From Limisphaerales bacterium (GTDB lineage: Bacteria; Verrucomicrobiota; Verrucomicrobiia; Limisphaerales; UBA11358), in contig JANYFN010000305.1 of assembly GCA_025362675.1 (NCBI GenBank), positions 1 through 44,530 of the forward strand: 44,530 bases of DNA. The letters run 5' to 3'. The translations under genes and the position numbers were made by a program. Of this stretch, positions 3,641-12,714 are shown piece after piece. Each line of letters begins with the position of its first letter. The stretch's first letter is position 1. Under the pieces are notes generated by a model, which did not search any database, was not told the origin of the DNA, and saw only the letters and a list, made by a program, of their open reading frames with translations.

Positions 3641-4318
3641 ATGCGCATCCTACTTGCCGAAGACGAACGAAAGGTCGCGGAACATCTCCGCGTCGGGTTG
3701 GTGGCGGAAGGCTATGCCGTGGATGTGGCGGGCGATGGGGATGAGGCTCTGTGGCTGGCAGAATCAAACACCTACGACGCGATGCTGCTGGACATCACCA
3801 TGCCGCACAAAGACGGCATCACGGTGGTGCGGTTACTGCGACGAAAAAAAATCCTGACCCCGGTAATTTTTATTACCGCGCGGGATGACGTGGAAAACAA
3901 GGTGCGCGGATTGGATGCCGGCGGCGATGATTATCTGACGAAACCGTTTTCCATCGTCGAACTATTAGCGCGATTACGGGCCGTGCTGAGGCGGCAGAGG
4001 CCCCAAGCGACCACGACTTTGCGCGTTGGAGATTTGGAGTTGGATTTAATATCGCACGCGGCGCAGCGAGGCGGAGTAGCGATTGAACTCACGCCGCGCG
4101 AGTTTGCTTTACTAGAATTTCTGATGAGCAATTCGCCTAAGCCGGTGGGCAAAACGGCGATTGTGGAACACGTGTGGGATCAGCATTTTGATTCTGAAAC
4201 CAACGTGGTGAATGTTTACATCAAAATGCTGCGACGGAAAATTGATCTGCCCGCGATGCCCCCGCTGATCCACACGGTGCGCGGCGTGGGCTTTGCCTTG
4301 CGCGAGGATGAACCATGA
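3641..4318 (+). CDS. OmpR-family response regulator
   Basis: 225 residues: receiver domain at 1-115 with acidic pair E7/D8, phosphoacceptor D51 (AMLLDITMP), T79 and K101 (LTKPF), then a winged-helix DNA-binding domain at about 127-222 (ELTPREFALLEFLMSNSPKP, later VNVYIKMLRRKID and HTVRGVGFAL). It belongs to the QseB/PmrA/CpxR-like group and is a phosphorylation-switched transcription factor. Its stop overlaps the kinase start (ATGA), so the pair is translationally coupled. The DUF3570-ApbE cluster begins 82 bp after the kinase and is the obvious candidate target, although that is inferred from position only. Confidence 0.95.
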   Translation: MRILLAEDERKVAEHLRVGLVAEGYAVDVAGDGDEALWLAESNTYDAMLLDITMPHKDGITVVRLLRRKKILTPVIFITARDDVENKVRGLDAGGDDYLTKPFSIVELLARLRAVLRRQRPQATTTLRVGDLELDLISHAAQRGGVAIELTPREFALLEFLMSNSPKPVGKTAIVEHVWDQHFDSETNVVNVYIKMLRRKIDLPAMPPLIHTVRGVGFALREDEP

Positions 4319-5367
4319 AGTCACTGCGGGCGCGACTCGCATTGTGGTTTGGCATCGGCTTCCTGCTGGTGGCGGCGGCTTTTATTTATTTGCTGCATCT
4401 TTCGCTGGACTCTCAACTCCTCGAAAAAGCCTGCAACAAAATCTATCCCGACCTGCCAAGCTGGGAGTTTCACAACAGCCTCTCGGAGGCGGAAGTGCAT
4501 CAGATTTCCGATGCGCTCATGCATGACGCGCTGTTACTGCTGGTGCCGCTCGCGATCATCGCGGTGGCCGGTGGCTACTGGCTGGCGCGCCAATCGTTGC
4601 GCCCCATCGCCAGCGTGAACCGGCAGTTGCAGGCGAAACATCCCGGCAATCTGGGCGAACCGATTTCGTTGCCGGAACTGGACAACGAATTTCGCGACCT
4701 GCTCCGGCAATTGAACGAACTACTCGCGCGGTTGGACGGATCGTTCTCGGAGATGAACAATTACGCGGCTAAAGTTGCACACGAGCTCCGCACGCCGCTC
4801 GCGATCATGCGCTTGAAAGTGGAACAGGCCGGCGAAAACATTGCGCCCGAACTCGCGGACGAGTTGGAAAGTGAATTGCACCGGCTCACCCACGTCGTGG
4901 ATCAATCCCTGCTCATCGCGCGCGCGGAGCAAGGCCGCCTCGCCGCTACCCGTTCCGTATTTAATTTTTCGGCGACCATCACTGAGATCGTCGCCGATTT
5001 TCAACTACTCGCCACGGAGCAAGGGCGTCATTTAACCTTGCTCGCGGATGACGATTGCTGGGTCGCCGCCGACCCGCGCCATGTGCGGCAGATCGCCCAC
5101 AACTTGCTGACCAATGCGCTCAAACATGGTGGTGGCGATTTCGCCGTCCGCGTCCAGCGGCACGCCCAAAAAGTCACGCTCGTGGTGGCCAACCGCGTGC
5201 ATGGTGTAAGCAGTGAAAAAAACACGCTCGGACTCGGCTTGCGCGTGGTCGCCGCCCTACTCCGGTTGGAACCGGATATGAAATTGCAACAACGGCGCGG
5301 AGTGGATTACCACCTTTCCCGCCTCCTCATGCCGACGGTGAACTTACCCGAATCATTTCAGATTTGA
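4315..5367 (+). CDS. sensor histidine kinase partner of the response regulator
   Basis: 350 residues. Membrane helices at about 8-29 and 70-92 flank a short external loop of only about 40 residues. Then come a linker, the dimerisation helix with H156 (AKVAHELRTPLAIMRLKVE) and an ATP-binding domain with the N box at 260-272 (NLLTNALKHGG) and the G box TLGLGLRVV at 304-312. The usual DxGxG G1 motif is not evident: the matching stretch reads LVVANRVHGVSSEKN. The small sensor loop suggests detection within the membrane, of a metal or small ligand, or through a partner, rather than by a folded PAS/Cache domain. It overlaps the regulator gene by 4 bp. Confidence 0.93.
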   Translation: MKSLRARLALWFGIGFLLVAAAFIYLLHLSLDSQLLEKACNKIYPDLPSWEFHNSLSEAEVHQISDALMHDALLLLVPLAIIAVAGGYWLARQSLRPIASVNRQLQAKHPGNLGEPISLPELDNEFRDLLRQLNELLARLDGSFSEMNNYAAKVAHELRTPLAIMRLKVEQAGENIAPELADELESELHRLTHVVDQSLLIARAEQGRLAATRSVFNFSATITEIVADFQLLATEQGRHLTLLADDDCWVAADPRHVRQIAHNLLTNALKHGGGDFAVRVQRHAQKVTLVVANRVHGVSSEKNTLGLGLRVVAALLRLEPDMKLQQRRGVDYHLSRLLMPTVNLPESFQI

Positions 5368-5449: not shown

Positions 5450-6631
5450 ATGATCTGGTTCCGTGACATGACCGCTAAAAAACAATCGCATATTTCAGTG
5501 TGCGCCACCGGAAACAACTTTTACCGTCGCTGGCAACGGTTCTTACCGCTCGGCCTAATGTTCAGCCTGCCGCAATTTCTGCGCGCTGAAAATCAGGTGG
5601 CCTATCGCTACGAATTTTACTCCGAGGACAACAACCGGATGCAGATCGAGACGCACTCGGTCTATTTCGAGCAAAAATTGCTGGATAACGTCACGGCCAA
5701 GGGCGATCTGGTTTATGACGGCATTTCCGGGGCGACACCGACGGGCACGCATGATGCCAAAGGCAAAGCCAGAACCACCAAATTAGAGGACCTCCGCCGC
5801 GCTGGTAACATTGGGTTGGAATGGCGTTTCGCCAACCATAAACTTTCCACGGGCTTCGCCTTCAGCAAGGAGCACGACTATTTATCCTACGGCGTGTCAT
5901 TGGCCGACGCGATTGAGTTCAACGAAAAAAATACCATTCTCCAAATAGGGGCCTCGCACAATTTAGATTCCGTTCGACACGCGGATAAAACGACGTGGTC
6001 GGGAAAAAATTCAACGGAGGCTATTGTCGGAATTTCTCAATTGCTCTCGCCCAAGGATGTTTTCAACGTCACCCTGACCTTTGGCAACGATTCGGGTTAT
6101 TTGAGTGATCCTTACCGCCTAGCTGAATATCATCCCAACGTTTTTCCGGCGGGGTTCAATATTGGCGTGCCGGAGCGCCGCCCCGCCCATCGCAACAAGG
6201 AAATCATGCTCACGTCACTGACGCATCATTTCAATTCGCTCGATGCCAGCCTCGAAGGCTCCTACCGTTTTTACCACGATTCCTATGGCGTTGACAGTCA
6301 CACGCTCGGCCTGACTTGGCATCAATGGCTCGGCAAACACTTGATCCTGGAGCCGGCGTTCCGTTTCAGTGAACAATCGGCAGCCTCCTTTTATACCACG
6401 ACATTTGCCGGGACATTTTCAACGAATCCGGGTGGCTATCATTCTGCCGATTACCGACTTTCCAATTTTTATTCTTTGGACTTCGGGTTGCAGGCGACCG
6501 TTATTCTCAATGACCATTTACGAGTCATCGGCGGCTACCATCGTTACGAGATGTATGGGTTAGATAGCACGACATCGGACATGTATCCGCAAGCAAACAT
6601 CTTTACCATTGGCCTCCAATTTTTATGGTGA
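5450..6631 (+). CDS. DUF3570 outer-membrane beta-barrel-like protein with DGISGAT motif
   Basis: 393 residues, recognised as DUF3570. A hydrophobic export segment lies near residues 31-46 (FLPLGLMFSLPQFLRA), and the start could also be the ATG at codon 7. The mature part is a run of alternating amphipathic strands ending in an aromatic residue (FTIGLQFLW), typical of an outer-membrane barrel. At residues 90-96 the sequence reads DGISGAT followed by PTG. DxxSGAT is the pattern in which ApbE enzymes attach FMN to Thr in NqrB/NqrC/RnfG-type proteins, and the next gene is apbE, overlapping by 7 bp. I infer that T96 may carry covalent FMN or that the motif marks an ApbE-linked family. Function is otherwise unknown. 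Confidence 0.85.
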   Translation: MIWFRDMTAKKQSHISVCATGNNFYRRWQRFLPLGLMFSLPQFLRAENQVAYRYEFYSEDNNRMQIETHSVYFEQKLLDNVTAKGDLVYDGISGATPTGTHDAKGKARTTKLEDLRRAGNIGLEWRFANHKLSTGFAFSKEHDYLSYGVSLADAIEFNEKNTILQIGASHNLDSVRHADKTTWSGKNSTEAIVGISQLLSPKDVFNVTLTFGNDSGYLSDPYRLAEYHPNVFPAGFNIGVPERRPAHRNKEIMLTSLTHHFNSLDASLEGSYRFYHDSYGVDSHTLGLTWHQWLGKHLILEPAFRFSEQSAASFYTTTFAGTFSTNPGGYHSADYRLSNFYSLDFGLQATVILNDHLRVIGGYHRYEMYGLDSTTSDMYPQANIFTIGLQFLW

Positions 6632-7623
6632 TGCCCAGTCCCAGCTCGGCGCAGGAAGCCATTGATCGCGTGCGCCAATCCGCGAACGCCACGGTGGATA
6701 AAACGTTGCACCGGCTGGAATTCCGCGCGATGAGCACGCTCTGCCACGTCAACTTTCATGGCGTCGCCGCCAGCATCGCCCGCGATTTTCAACGCGATGT
6801 CGTCGCGTGGGTTGGCCAGTTTGAGGGTCGCTACTCGCGATTTATTCCCGACAGCCTCATTGGGCGCATCAACGCCGCTGCCGGTGAACATTGGGTAGAA
6901 ACCGATCCCGACACCGACCGGCTGCTCGCACTCTGCCACGAATTGTATTTTTTCACGCGCGGCTCTTTTGATCCAACCGCGCTGCCGCTGATGAAATTGT
7001 GGAACTGGAAAATACAACCGCCCGCGTTGCCGAGCGACGAGTCTATCCGCGCCGCGCTCGAAATCGTCGGCTGGAAAAAAGTTCAACGGCGGCCCGGCGC
7101 AATTTTTCTACCGCAGCCTGGAATGGCACTTGATCTCGGCGGCATCGGTAAAGAATACGCCGTGGATTGTGTTATGAACCTAGCCGTGGAACGCGGCATC
7201 TCAAATATTCTGGTGGATTTTGGTCAGGATGTTCGCGTGCGCGGTCATGCACCCGACAAAAAATTTTGGTGGATCGGTTTGGATGACGCAGCACAACCCG
7301 GCAAATGCTGGGGAGGGGTCGCGCTGACCGATCATGCCGTGACCACCTCCGGCGACTACCTGCGGAACTTCGTCATCAATGGCCGGCGTTATGGGCACAT
7401 TATAGACCCGCGCAACGGCTACCCCGCGTTCAACGACTGTCGCGCCGCCTCAGTCATCGCCCCGAGTTGCACCATCGCCGGATTACTTTCCACCAGCATT
7501 TGCATTTTAGGCGCACGCGACGGCTTGCAACTCGTCGAGTTGCACCCCGGTGCAGCCTGTGCAATTTTGACCGGAACTACGAAACTTTATTCCAGCAAAT
7601 TTCATGAATATATTCCCGCTTAA
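6625..7623 (+). CDS. apbE: FAD:protein FMN transferase (ApbE family)
   Basis: 332 residues, starting inside the end of the DUF3570 gene. Family landmarks appear in order: SLIGRINAAAG at about 72-82, RGSFDPTALPLM, LDLGGIGKEYAVD (FAD-binding loop), TTSGDYLRNF and YGHIIDPRNGYPA (Mg/FMN-site region). ApbE hydrolyses FAD and transfers FMN onto a Thr or Ser of DxxSGAT-type target motifs. Two neighbours carry such motifs (DUF3570 and the Ig-domain protein). Most ApbE proteins are exported lipoproteins, but this one has no recognisable signal peptide or lipobox, and the track shows no earlier start in its frame. It may therefore act in the cytosol or use an unrecognised export route. Confidence 0.93.
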   Translation: MVMPSPSSAQEAIDRVRQSANATVDKTLHRLEFRAMSTLCHVNFHGVAASIARDFQRDVVAWVGQFEGRYSRFIPDSLIGRINAAAGEHWVETDPDTDRLLALCHELYFFTRGSFDPTALPLMKLWNWKIQPPALPSDESIRAALEIVGWKKVQRRPGAIFLPQPGMALDLGGIGKEYAVDCVMNLAVERGISNILVDFGQDVRVRGHAPDKKFWWIGLDDAAQPGKCWGGVALTDHAVTTSGDYLRNFVINGRRYGHIIDPRNGYPAFNDCRAASVIAPSCTIAGLLSTSICILGARDGLQLVELHPGAACAILTGTTKLYSSKFHEYIPA

Positions 7624-8098
7624 AAAAATTGTTTTAGCCACGATTCTCTCCGGGATTTTTTCCTGCGCGCATGCCGCGCTGAAAGTCGGTGACACCTTGC
7701 CTGATCTGGTGAGCTACAAGTTGGAAGGTAAATTACCCGACAGCTTGAAAGGAAAAATTGTGGTCGTAGATTTCTGGGCCTCGTGGTGTCTGCCCTGCGC
7801 GGAATCGTTTCCGGTGATGGACGAGCTGCAAAAAAAATACGGCGACCGCGTGGTCATTCTCGCTGTGAACGTGGACGAAAAAGCGGCGAAGATGGAAAAA
7901 TTTCTCACGAAGCATCCGGTCACCTTCACCGTCGTCCGCGATGGCTCGCAAAAACTCGTGGCGGCAGTTGAACCGGAAACCATGCCCACCTCATTTATTT
8001 TGGATGGCGAAGGCAAAGTGAAGTTTCTTCACAAAGGTTTTCACGGCGATGAAACGCGCCAGCAATACATCAGCGAAATAGATTCCCTCTTGAAATGA
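7604..8098 (+). CDS. TlpA-like exported thioredoxin
   Basis: 164 residues with a signal peptide at 1-24 (KKIVLATILSGIFSCAHA) and a thioredoxin fold whose active site is WASWCLPC (C62, C65). The cis-Pro region reads PETMPTSFILDG. It overlaps the apbE end by 20 bp and the next gene by 4 bp, so it is clearly part of the cluster. TlpA/ResA proteins reduce or isomerise exported thiols, often during cytochrome or cuproprotein assembly. The likely client here is the neighbouring DUF4266 lipoprotein, whose extreme C-terminus carries a Cys-Gly-Cys pair. That partnership is inference from linkage. Confidence 0.92.
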   Translation: MNIFPLKKIVLATILSGIFSCAHAALKVGDTLPDLVSYKLEGKLPDSLKGKIVVVDFWASWCLPCAESFPVMDELQKKYGDRVVILAVNVDEKAAKMEKFLTKHPVTFTVVRDGSQKLVAAVEPETMPTSFILDGEGKVKFLHKGFHGDETRQQYISEIDSLLK

Positions 8099-8319
8099 TT
8101 ATGAACCGCATCGCCTTGATTTTATTGGCCGTAATCACCTTGGCCATCACAAGTGGCTGCGTGAACGTCAAGCCGTGGCAACGTGAGCATCTGGCCGATT
8201 ATACGATGCAACCCGACCGCGACCCGCTCGGAACCGCGCAAGCTGAACACATCTGGTTCTCGCGTGAGGAGGCCAGCGGCGGCAGCGGCGTGGGCGGCGG
8301 CGGCTGCGGCTGCAATTAA
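8095..8319 (+). CDS. DUF4266 small lipoprotein ending in GGGGCGCN
   Basis: 74 residues from the overlapping ATG (ATGA with tlpA), or 72 from the second in-frame ATG at 8101. The lipobox ITSGC gives a mature lipoprotein of about 53 residues. The core VKPWQREHLADYTMQPDRDP is the DUF4266 signature, followed by FSREEASGGSG and a Gly-rich tail ending CGC-Asn. The tail looks built for metal, cofactor or thiol chemistry, which fits the neighbouring thioredoxin. DUF4266 is commonly found next to DUF3570, so the two are probably one functional unit at the outer membrane. The biochemical role is not known to me. Confidence 0.88.
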   Translation: MIMNRIALILLAVITLAITSGCVNVKPWQREHLADYTMQPDRDPLGTAQAEHIWFSREEASGGSGVGGGGCGCN

Positions 8320-8371: not shown

Positions 8372-9397
8372 ATGAAACGATTGGCCCAAATCCTTCCCAT
8401 TTTTCTCGCTGCGGCATTGCAGATCATGCCAATGGTCAGAAATTTTTTCCTCAGTCCCGCCGCAGGTTCGAGCTTCGCCTTCATTCTCCGTTGGGGCGTC
8501 GGCTCAGCGGCGGCCGTCGGGGCATATGATTCGTGTTCGGGAGCGACCAATTTTTTCGCCGGCCCAACGAACATGACCTTGAACATGAATACGCCTTATA
8601 CCACCAACTTGTTATTAACCGTCAAGACTTCCGGCGATGGCGGGGCGCTTTGCACCGTGTTAACCAATAGCACAGTGGCGGCCGTTCTTATATATCCCGC
8701 TACTACGACCAACGGTATGCCCGCAGGAATGAGTTTGAAGTTTTTTGATTTGAATACTGGCAGTTCCAGTTTTTCAAATGTTTACTGCCAAATTTACGGA
8801 ACTCCAACCAAGGCTGGCACCAATTTATTTCATCTGAATTTATTCTACCAAACTGGCACTGCCGCCGTGGATGGTGATTTTAGAATAGTTGTTCAGGCTG
8901 CCAGCGGTGGGGTTGCGCCGACGATTACCAATCAGCCGACGGGAACTTCGATAATAGCCGGTGGTAGCACCTCGTTTAGCGTTACTGCTGGTGGCACGAC
9001 TCCGCTGGCCTATCAGTGGCGATTAGCTAACACCAACCTGACCGGAAACACAGCGAGTGCATTAAGTCTCTCGCAAGTCCGTATGAGTCAGGCGGGAAAT
9101 TATACTGTGGTCATAACAAATTCCTTCGGATCCATCACCAGCTCCCCAGCGGCGCTCGTGGTCAATGCGCCAGCTTCACCGACCATTACTGCACCCACAA
9201 AAAACGGCGGCGGATTTCAATTCACCTTTGTTCCGGTCGTCGGTTTAACAAATACCGTTCAAGCCAATAGCGATCTGAGCGGTGGCGCGTGGAATATGTT
9301 CTCCAACGTCCCGCCGCCCGTCAGCGTCAGCCCAGTGACGGTCACGGATACTCTCGGCAGTTCCAATCGTTTCTATCGCGTGATGATTCAGCCTTAA
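8372..9397 (+). CDS. membrane-anchored Ig-domain protein with DSCSGAT motif
   Basis: 341 residues from the ATG at 8372 (MKRLAQILPIFLAAAL); the earlier track start lies inside the DUF4266 gene and translates to low-complexity Ala/Arg. Hydrophobic segments at about 5-20 and 33-51 are followed directly by DSCSGAT at 53-59, a second DxxSGAT match in this cluster. The middle is Ser/Thr/Asn-rich, and an Ig-like domain spans about 185-275 (AYQWRLANTNLTGN, then AGNYTVVITNSFGS). The C-terminal module NTVQANSDLSGGAWNMF...FYRVMIQP resembles the ends of other large exported proteins in this window. It sits 52 bp after DUF4266 in the same direction. I infer a surface or periplasmic partner of the ApbE system. 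Confidence 0.72.
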   Translation: MKRLAQILPIFLAAALQIMPMVRNFFLSPAAGSSFAFILRWGVGSAAAVGAYDSCSGATNFFAGPTNMTLNMNTPYTTNLLLTVKTSGDGGALCTVLTNSTVAAVLIYPATTTNGMPAGMSLKFFDLNTGSSSFSNVYCQIYGTPTKAGTNLFHLNLFYQTGTAAVDGDFRIVVQAASGGVAPTITNQPTGTSIIAGGSTSFSVTAGGTTPLAYQWRLANTNLTGNTASALSLSQVRMSQAGNYTVVITNSFGSITSSPAALVVNAPASPTITAPTKNGGGFQFTFVPVVGLTNTVQANSDLSGGAWNMFSNVPPPVSVSPVTVTDTLGSSNRFYRVMIQP

Positions 9398-10213: not shown

Positions 10214-10873
10214 GTGACAAAATCCAAAAAACTCTGGCATCACCATACCAAAAGACCCGCGACCCGGCTGCTACTTATCCGCCACGGTGAAGTGGAAACC
10301 CGCTACCAAAATAAATTTGGCGGCGTGATTGACATGAACCTCTCGGCAAATGGGAGAAAGCAGGCCAAGGTGCTCGCTGATTATCTGCGTGCCAAAACGA
10401 TTGATGCGATCTATGCCAGCCCGATGAAGCGCGTGCAGCAGACGCTCGCGCCCACATTAAAATTCAGCCATCAACAGCAAACTATTCTGCCCGGCCTGAA
10501 GGAAATTGATTTTGGCGACTGGACTGGGCTGGGCTGGAAAGACGTGGAAGCACGGTTCAAATTTCGTTCGCACGAATGGCTCGACCAGATTCATCGCCAC
10601 GGCTCCCCCAATGGTGAAAGCGGAAAAGTTTTTTCCGCGCGCGTAAAACCTTGCCTCGAACAAATTATGGCCGCCCATCCCGGAGAAAATGTGGCGATCT
10701 TCTGCCACGGCGGCGTCATCCGCATGATCTTGTCCGTGCTGCTGAAACTGCCGTTGCCGAAAACGAACCAGTTTGACGTCGAATACGCCAGCATCACGCA
10801 GTTAGCGCTGCATGAGCACATAAACGAGGTGGAACTGCTGAACTTCACTCCGTGGCGCGATCTGGTGGGGTGA
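10214..10873 (+). CDS. histidine phosphatase / phosphoglycerate mutase-like protein
   Basis: 219 residues from the GTG at 10214, 7 bp after rph and with CAAGGA upstream; the track start inside rph is rejected. The phosphohistidine motif LLIRHGEVE is near residue 20, R-containing YASPMKRVQQT follows, then KEIDFGDWTGLGWKD and the second catalytic His in IFCHGGVIRM. These are hallmarks of the GpmB/CobC/SixA branch. Members dephosphorylate small metabolites (alpha-ribazole phosphate, phosphosugars and others). The substrate is not evident from the sequence or from its neighbours. Confidence 0.9.
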   Translation: MTKSKKLWHHHTKRPATRLLLIRHGEVETRYQNKFGGVIDMNLSANGRKQAKVLADYLRAKTIDAIYASPMKRVQQTLAPTLKFSHQQQTILPGLKEIDFGDWTGLGWKDVEARFKFRSHEWLDQIHRHGSPNGESGKVFSARVKPCLEQIMAAHPGENVAIFCHGGVIRMILSVLLKLPLPKTNQFDVEYASITQLALHEHINEVELLNFTPWRDLVG

Positions 10874-10880
10874 AAAATTC

Positions 10881-10952
10881 AACCGCGAAATACACGAAAT
10901 ACGCGAAATAAAAACCAGAAATTTTGTTCGCGTATTTTGCCTATTCGCGGTT
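10881..10952. repeat. imperfect inverted repeat with internal ACGCGAAAT repeats
   Basis: Left arm AACCGCGAAATACACGAAAT then ACGCGAA; right arm TTCGCGTATTTTGCC then TATTCGCGGTT. Together they fold into a stem of about 26 bp with a 19-nt loop. The left arm is itself a run of CGCGAAATA-like units. It fills the gap between the phosphatase stop and prmA. I take it as a dispersed intergenic repeat that may also act as a terminator. Confidence 0.65.
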
Positions 10953-10965
10953 AACAATTCCGATT

Positions 10966-11883
10966 ATGAAAACGACTAAACCTCTCTGGCGCATCTCCGT
11001 CACCACTTCGCTCACAGCGGAGGATGCCGTAATGGAACTGCTCGGTTCAACGTTTGGCACAACCGCCTCGGCCTATTTCAATCTTGAGACTGGCGTGAGC
11101 ATTGTCTCGGTCTATCTGACCGGCAAAAAAGGGCTTTCGGCTGGAAAAAAAGCGGCAATTTTTTCCGGTCTGGAGCAGATGAAAAAATTTGGCCTTGATC
11201 CGCAACCAGGGGAAATTGAAGCCAAAAAAGTCAAACGCGAAGATTGGGCCGAGTCTTGGAAAAAACATTTTAAAGCAATGGAAATCGACAAGGCGTTGCT
11301 CGTAAAACCGAGCTGGATTAAAAAATCGCCCCGCAAAAATCAAGCGGTGGTGATCCTTGATCCGGGTTTGAGTTTCGGCACCGGACAACATGCTACAACG
11401 TCATTTTGCCTTTCGGAAATTGTCAGACTGCAAAAAAAAGAACAGTCAAAATCATTTTTGGACATCGGCACGGGTTCAGGAATCCTGGCTATTTCGGCAG
11501 CAAAACTCGGCTACCAGCCCGTCGAAGCGTTTGATTTTGATCCTGAATCTGTCCGCGTCGCCAAAGCGAATGCTGCGGTGAACGACGTTTCAAAAAAAAT
11601 AAAATTATCACGCGGTGACGTGACGAAGTTGCCACTTCGGGCACCGGAAAAATATGACCTTGTCTGTGCGAATCTCATTTCTAATCTGTTAGTGGCAGAA
11701 CGAAAGCGCATTGTAAATCGGGTAAAACCCGACGGCACGCTGGTGCTGGCCGGGATTTTGGCGGTGGAATTTGGCGAGGTGCAAGTCACGTTCGAATCTT
11801 TGGGTTGGAAACTGGTGGCCGACAAAGTTGAAAAAGAATGGCGTTCTGGTTCGTTTCAATTGGTGCGAAAAAATTCGCAATAA
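10966..11883 (+). CDS. prmA: ribosomal protein L11 methyltransferase
   Basis: 305 residues from the ATG at 10966 (MKTTKPLWRISVTTS); the longer track ORF begins inside the upstream repeat. It has an N-terminal L11-recognition domain, then VILDPGLSFGTGQHATTSFC and the SAM-binding motif FLDIGTGSGILAISAAKLG, followed by EAFDFDPESVRVAKANA and the post-motif DLVCANLISNLL. PrmA trimethylates ribosomal protein L11 in the cytosol. The gene is flanked by the inverted repeat upstream and the small ORF region downstream. Confidence 0.94.
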   Translation: MKTTKPLWRISVTTSLTAEDAVMELLGSTFGTTASAYFNLETGVSIVSVYLTGKKGLSAGKKAAIFSGLEQMKKFGLDPQPGEIEAKKVKREDWAESWKKHFKAMEIDKALLVKPSWIKKSPRKNQAVVILDPGLSFGTGQHATTSFCLSEIVRLQKKEQSKSFLDIGTGSGILAISAAKLGYQPVEAFDFDPESVRVAKANAAVNDVSKKIKLSRGDVTKLPLRAPEKYDLVCANLISNLLVAERKRIVNRVKPDGTLVLAGILAVEFGEVQVTFESLGWKLVADKVEKEWRSGSFQLVRKNSQ

Positions 11884-12009
11884 AAGTTTGAACAATCCAC
11901 TACCGGTGCGAGTCTCATTTACGTCTGTCAGCGGATTCCGAAACAGGCCCGAAGAGTTGGCATTGTTTAGGCTGTAGCTCTGGTGACAGTAAACGAAAGG
12001 CACAATGCT

Positions 12010-12174
12010 ATGATGAAAACTATGCAAGCCATCAGTGAAGCTATCCGTGATCCGAAACACCCGTTTCGTAAAACAGATCACCAACCAAAAAAATCGCTCA
12101 AAAATCGTTACGAGCGCAGAAAAATCAAAGAATACCTCCATCTCGGGGATTGGTTGTCCGAGGAAGCAGCGTAA
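12010..12174 (+). CDS. small basic protein, hypothetical
   Basis: 54 residues from the ATG at 12010 (63 from the GTG at 11983). The sequence is highly charged (KHPFRKTDHQPKKSLKNRYE, then RRKIKEYLHLGDWLSEEAA), with no membrane segment or known domain. It is followed by a hairpin shared with zur, consistent with a real transcript end. No strong ribosome binding site is visible. It could be a genuine small nucleic-acid-binding protein or a chance ORF. Confidence 0.4.
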   Translation: MMKTMQAISEAIRDPKHPFRKTDHQPKKSLKNRYERRKIKEYLHLGDWLSEEAA

Positions 12175-12212
12175 AATTACAGGACAACCATTCTTCTAAA
12201 ATGTCCTTAAAC

Positions 12213-12240
12213 CGCCGGTTGAACCTAAGTTCAACCGGCG
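12213..12240. terminator. bidirectional terminator between small ORF and zur
   Basis: Perfect 12-bp stem CGCCGGTTGAAC/GTTCAACCGGCG with a 4-nt loop CTAA. It lies between convergent genes and 12 bp past the zur stop, so it can serve both strands. The flanking T-runs are modest. Confidence 0.75.
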
Positions 12241-12252
12241 ATGTAAGAAAAA

Positions 12253-12714
12253 TCACCTCTGACAGTCCGGGCAGGTTCCAAAAAACTCCAGTTTGTGGGT
12301 CACATTTTTGTAGCCATTTTTTTGAGCAATTCTTTTTTGAATTTCGTCTGGAAAACATTCCGCAATTTCTACCACGCCGGAACAGTTGACGCAAACCAAG
12401 TGATGGTGGTGCCCATCATCTCCTTCGCCAACGAGTTCAAACCTCGCCGCCCCGTCATGGAAATGGTAGCGCTTGACCATTCCCATCGTCTCCAAGAGAT
12501 GCATTGACCGATAAACCGTGGCAAGGTCGCAATGGTCTTTTGGCAGTGCGGCTAAAATCTCCCGACTCGTGAGCGGATGCGGATGGGCATGGAGAATTTC
12601 CAGAATGGCCGCGCGCGGTCCAGTGATCTTTCGGGATTCGCGGCGGAGGCGTCCGGTGAGGTCGGACATTTTTTCGCGACGCGGTGGATGCTCGTGCCCG
12701 CAGACCTTTTTCAT
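12253..12714 (-). CDS. zur: Fur-family regulator, probably Zur
   Basis: 153 residues. The winged helix has DLATVYRSMHLLETMGMV as recognition helix, HHHHLVCVNC provides regulatory-site His and Cys108/Cys111, and CPDC (148/151) completes the structural zinc site. The family represses metal uptake genes when its metal is bound. The ATG overlaps the stop of the ZIP transporter gene by 4 bp, so regulator and transporter are co-expressed. Zur is favoured over Fur because its partner is a ZIP importer and the next operon carries cysteine-poor ribosomal proteins and a zinc-finger-less DksA. Metal identity is inferred. A palindrome before the ZIP gene is the likely autoregulatory operator. Confidence 0.85.
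   Translation of the reverse strand: MKKVCGHEHPPRREKMSDLTGRLRRESRKITGPRAAILEILHAHPHPLTSREILAALPKDHCDLATVYRSMHLLETMGMVKRYHFHDGAARFELVGEGDDGHHHHLVCVNCSGVVEIAECFPDEIQKRIAQKNGYKNVTHKLEFFGTCPDCQR

Follow-up and report, generated by a model that had tools for sequence, protein, structure and literature searches.

The closest described system is that of Meheust et al. (2021, eLife; PMC8238504). In that study, the DUF3570 protein of C. luteolum was flavinylated when co-expressed with its ApbE; it has two sites, and flavinylation was abolished only by mutating both. Both proteins were produced without signal peptides and DUF3570 was found mostly in the insoluble pellet, yet it was flavinylated. The article also describes the cluster of DUF3570, ApbE, thioredoxin, and DUF4266 genes, with DsbD proposed as electron source in some bacteria, as well as clusters lacking DsbD and a link of some clusters to iron uptake (PMC8238504). 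Among the passages retrieved from the article, none mentions a barrel, and the term outer membrane occurs once, in connection with siderophore transporters. Within the literature collection searched, no other article contained the word DUF3570.

The window analyzed here, i.e., the whole stretch of 44,530 nucleotides, contains such a cluster (Table 1). The gene order DUF3570, ApbE, thioredoxin, and DUF4266 was found in most of the loci of 80 relatives, a few of which had no adjacent apbE.

Table 1. Features of the DUF3570 locus, in positions of the window.
Feature	Position	Strand	Evidence or remark
Response regulator, OmpR type	3641..4318	+	Pfam Response_reg and Trans_reg_C; upstream of DUF3570
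Sensor histidine kinase	4315..5367	+	Pfam HisKA/HATPase/HAMP
DUF3570 protein (393 aa)	5450..6631	+	PF12094 E 6.7e-58; AlphaFold2; PDB fold matches
Flavinylation motif DGISGAT	5717..5737	+	Residues 90-96; FMN expected on Thr96, codon 5735-5737
ApbE FAD:protein FMN transferase	6625..7623	+	PF02424 E 1.3e-68
Exported thioredoxin-like protein (ResA/TlpA type), WCLPC	7604..8098	+	Pfam Redoxin/Thioredoxin_8; NCBIfam ResA-like
DUF4266 small lipoprotein, lipobox ITSGC, C-terminal GGGGCGCN	8095..8319	+	PF14086 E 3.3e-21
Secreted or membrane-anchored Ig-domain protein, cluster-specific N-terminal domain	8372..9397	+	
Second strict motif DSCSGAT	8528..8548	+	Residues 53-59 of the Ig-domain protein

The original prediction had read DGISGAT, followed by P-T-G, as an NqrB/RnfG-type flavinylation pattern in a DUF3570 protein. 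Translation and coordinates were checked and were correct, as was the family assignment, the open reading frame scoring 196.9 bits against a PF12094 cut-off of 25. The window has 101 open reading frames of 90 aa or more, comprising 21,920 aa. Only two copies of the strict motif D-x-x-[ST]-G-A-[ST] were present among them, both within the ApbE cluster, and shuffling of the DUF3570 protein yielded it in 0.3% of shuffles. Because of this rarity, and because the acceptor and its flanks were conserved in 81 sequences (see below), DGISGAT is far beyond chance, and a chance origin was ruled out. Homology of the protein to NqrB/RnfG was likewise ruled out, as FMN_bind had no match in the DUF3570 protein and none in its genome; DUF3570 is therefore the only recognized ApbE substrate found there.

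Relatives were fetched via a peptide pattern elsewhere in the DUF3570 protein, so that the motif was not a selection criterion. The 80 sequences obtained, nearly all labeled Verrucomicrobiota, made up 81 with that of the window. G94, P97, and G99, which form a G-x-x-P-x-G frame, were unchanged in all 81. The acceptor (position 96) was Thr in 77 and Ser in 4, position 95 was Ala in 79 and Ser in 2, and position 90 was Asp in 77 and Asn in 4. Position 93, the fourth of the motif, was variable (Ala 41, Thr 24, Ser 14, Val 2), and with Ala or Val at this position about half of the relatives deviate from the textbook motif. Loss of the Thr within the family, which the original prediction had itself named as evidence against a flavin at this site, was not observed, an acceptor Thr or Ser being present in 81 of 81.

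The window DUF3570 thus has an [S/T]GA[S/T] motif with a conserved acceptor. Two conserved motifs, as published, were not found in it; it has a short hairpin with one site, and most relatives in its clade are likewise single-motif. In DUF3570 members of other classes in the phylum, the motif is followed by a long Pro-rich insert with a second, AGAT-type site; in some homologues the insert spans about 100 residues, with the second GAT inside the same hairpin. Divergent DUF3570 proteins in two loci (L022 and L023) had DYVSSAS at the motif position, in which Ser replaces Gly; the site may be a variant or may have been lost. The closest relative, locus L034, contains a second DUF3570-thioredoxin-DUF4266 set (10372-12363) with the motif DTISGAT and no ApbE beside it.

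Since the next gene is apbE, the acceptor is conserved in 81 of 81 sequences, and flavinylation of a DUF3570 protein is reported in the earlier study (PMC8238504), DGISGAT very probably serves as a genuine ApbE flavinylation site. The original reading is partly supported, its ApbE-type motif and conserved Thr being borne out; the adjacent apbE and the published flavinylation of the family were not part of that reading, which was made from the sequence alone. That GATPxG is instead kept for barrel structure and is unmodified in the clade of the window would agree with the missing Ser/Thr at position 4 in half of the relatives and with the few loci that lack an adjacent apbE. However, of six genomes in which apbE does not adjoin DUF3570, five encoded the same unusual ApbE type at another place, and the sixth (G200) contained ApbE genes outside the set whose type was read; Ser was the only substitute for Thr; and the biochemical flavinylation of a family member (PMC8238504) also argues against this explanation, which we regard as highly improbable.

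Signal peptides were judged by hydropathy. The window ApbE, read from stop to stop, had no N-terminal hydrophobic segment and no signal peptide. Of about 74 cognate ApbEs, nearly all likewise lacked a signal peptide and began with a short segment that was Pro/Ala-rich or polar, as did the ApbE of a Vibrio cluster. Two of these genomes also encode further ApbEs, and those had hydrophobic export-type N-termini. The cognate enzymes shared two substitutions: Gly replaced the classical Asp of ADALST in 71 of 71 readable sequences (A-G-L-L-S-T in the window), and Glu replaced the Gly after the Lys of DLGxxxKG in 72 of 72 (K-E-Y-A-V-D in the window). The second ApbE of the same genome had the classical residues at both positions. 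The Asp of ADALST in classical ApbEs is a metal ligand in structural work, and our guess is that in DUF3570-type ApbEs the Glu takes over this role.

Because the cognate ApbEs lack signal peptides and carry this linked residue signature, the sequences suggest that DUF3570 may be flavinylated in the cytosol before export. Sec passes adducts of up to approximately 2.4 nm (PMC6028853). Alternatively, ApbE could be exported by an unrecognized route and be active on the periplasmic side, like the enzymes of Nqr/Rnf systems, in line with classical bacterial ApbEs, which are mostly secreted lipoproteins (PMC12052999). This is unlikely, given both the absence of a hydrophobic N-terminal segment across nearly all of these homologues, Vibrio included, and the precedent for a cytosolic ApbE in Klebsiella (PMC12052999).

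The AlphaFold2 model of DUF3570 (80 sequences; mean pLDDT 88.3) showed a closed antiparallel barrel of 16 main strands with short turns on one side, an aromatic C-terminal end, and a hydrophobic, signal peptide-like N-terminus, features of outer-membrane beta-barrels. The best PDB fold matches of the model were outer-membrane barrels, e.g., PgaA (4y25), although these were general matches only (TM-scores 0.47 and 0.59). The predicted outer-membrane barrel thus held in the model, which is of the 16-strand outer-membrane type. The motif lies within strand 81-101 (strand 3), which is paired with 107-127; the blocks that hold the motif have mean pLDDT 98 and 95. Judging from the strand order and from the contrast between short turns at one end of the barrel and longer loops at the opposite end, both termini would be periplasmic and the motif would lie in the outer half of strand 3. 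The lipid/lumen alternation of hydropathy along the strand groups Thr96 with K84, D86, and D90 on one face, which would be that of the lumen.

A motif buried in a transmembrane strand and unmodified had been set against flavinylation in the original prediction. The motif is indeed part of a predicted strand, but it occupies the long outer extension of this strand in a lumen-facing register and therefore does not correspond to a buried, unmodified site. The proposal of a flavin near the cell surface is consistent with the barrel model, where the motif falls in the predicted extracellular half. Residues on the loop side were more conserved than the turns (3.0 vs. 2.5 bits), a pattern that surface loops do not usually show and that would be expected of a barrel mouth acting as a working site.

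We consider it likely that ApbE covalently flavinylates an outer-membrane barrel at this motif, the barrel belonging to the published DUF3570/ApbE/thioredoxin/DUF4266 redox cluster. The barrel might also be flavinylated with its flavin facing the periplasm or in the lumen, serving periplasmic thiol or metal redox with no outward transfer. This is less likely than not: the signals of thioredoxin and DUF4266 indicate that both face the periplasm, the register of Thr96 is lumen-facing, and some clusters are linked to iron uptake in the earlier study (PMC8238504), whereas the motif occupies the half of strand 3 distal to the short turns, and such turns usually point into the periplasm, and the Pro-rich insert of some homologues, at about 100 residues, is hard to fit on the short-turn side.

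Returning to the flavinylated outer-membrane barrel, in the scheme that we infer for barrel orientation, place of flavinylation, path and direction of electrons, and acceptor, cytosolic ApbE would transfer FMN from FAD to Thr96 of the unfolded DUF3570 precursor, which would then be exported by Sec and assembled into the 16-strand barrel. The FMN would come to sit close to the extracellular mouth, where the hairpin of strands 3 and 4 faces the lumen. Electrons could pass from DsbD to the exported thioredoxin, the Cys-x-Cys tail of DUF4266, the FMN, and finally an acceptor at or outside the outer membrane, so that DUF3570 may serve extracellular electron transfer. Estimated roughly from strand length, the distance between the periplasmic thiols and a flavin near the outer mouth would be tens of Angstrom; direct transfer would therefore not occur unless DUF4266 reached into the barrel. 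The C-terminus of DUF4266 was GCGCN in 71 of 71 sequences read. DsbD was not in the window cluster; it was found elsewhere in the same genome, and inside the cluster both in sister locus L034 and in the Vibrio cluster, which came from a plasmid collection and consists of thioredoxin, DUF4266, DUF3570 with DTVSGASP, ApbE, and DsbD. A scan of viral contigs gave no relatives.

The OmpR-type regulator upstream possibly controls the cluster, and a homologous regulator/kinase pair lies upstream in L034. The best NCBIfam match of the histidine kinase was a heavy-metal sensor (cztS/silS/copS), below cut-off. Regulator/kinase pairs also follow the cluster in other loci without the Ig gene; in one of these (L060, 9151-12227) the genes after the cluster encode a response regulator, a secreted protein judged by eye to be cupredoxin-like, a histidine kinase, and a porin-like protein.

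The fifth gene of the cluster encodes the Ig-domain protein. In a second AlphaFold run, its N-terminus was predicted as two helices followed by the motif in a low-confidence linker. This N-terminal domain was found in about 54 loci, usually directly after DUF4266. In the aligned motif (n=58), Gly was present in 56, Ala in 58, and Thr or Ser in 56; at position 1, about a third of the sequences had Asp or Asn and most of the remainder His; Ala predominated at position 4. A second protein of the window's own genome (827 aa, secreted type), encoded away from the ApbE cluster (L135, contig C232, 3253-5736, - strand), shares this N-terminal domain and has the motif DAVSGAT. Among 195 genomes of the phylum, the domain occurred in 11 of 21 with DUF3570 and in 1 of 174 without it (Fisher p 1.4e-11, kinship ignored), the single match in a genome without DUF3570 being weak and stop-interrupted. 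As the domain is nearly confined to DUF3570 genomes, a generic secretion signal is an unlikely origin of this N-terminus. The domain was absent from all five loci whose DUF3570 has a second motif, which may be a simple lineage effect.

The Ig-domain protein, with the only other strict motif of the window and an N-terminal domain that co-occurs with DUF3570, is a candidate for a new ApbE substrate. A serious rival is that A/S-G-A|T in this protein is a signal-peptidase site and not a flavinylation site: position 1 is His, not Asp, in most Ig relatives, and Glu47, directly after the DUF3570 signal peptide, is also nearly invariant, so that invariance at +1 is not decisive for the Ig motif. A wider reading, which we regard as doubtful, would be an outer-envelope flavin system with the cytosolic ApbE subtype and two flavinylated surface proteins, the barrel and the Ig protein, for cytochrome-free electron export; the Ig protein would then carry FMN at the end of its cluster-specific N-terminal domain (at DSCSGAT, or DAVSGAT in the second protein).

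If these proposals are correct, Gram-negative bacteria could carry covalent flavin, and not only heme, on an outer-membrane pore, attached before export; the role of DUF3570 systems would become directly testable, and a new class of flavinylated surface proteins would be possible. The core finding, a flavinylated DUF3570 and its cluster, is known, while the variant features are new; barrel placement, a seemingly intracellular transferase, and a second possible flavin carrier nearby are the new leads. With the C. luteolum system of Meheust et al. (2021), the window shares the family, the neighbors (ApbE, thioredoxin-like, DUF4266, and sometimes DsbD), and the type of motif; it differs in having one site rather than two conserved ones, an ApbE without signal peptide, and an extra motif-bearing Ig-domain gene. 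NqrB, NqrC, and RnfG have the D-x-x-[ST]-G-A-[ST] motif and the FMN on Thr expected for it in common with the window DUF3570, but they are inner-membrane or periplasmic proteins, and the window DUF3570 has no FMN_bind domain. In Mtr-type porin-cytochrome conduits, a redox carrier is associated with an outer-membrane barrel. The DUF3570 barrel would be analogous in this respect, but its carrier would be a flavin bound covalently to the barrel, not a heme chain, and the window cluster contains no cytochrome. Finally, the window ApbE resembles the cytosolic ApbE of Klebsiella in lacking a signal peptide (PMC12052999); the fumarate reductase modified there stays in the cytosol, whereas DUF3570 would be exported after modification.
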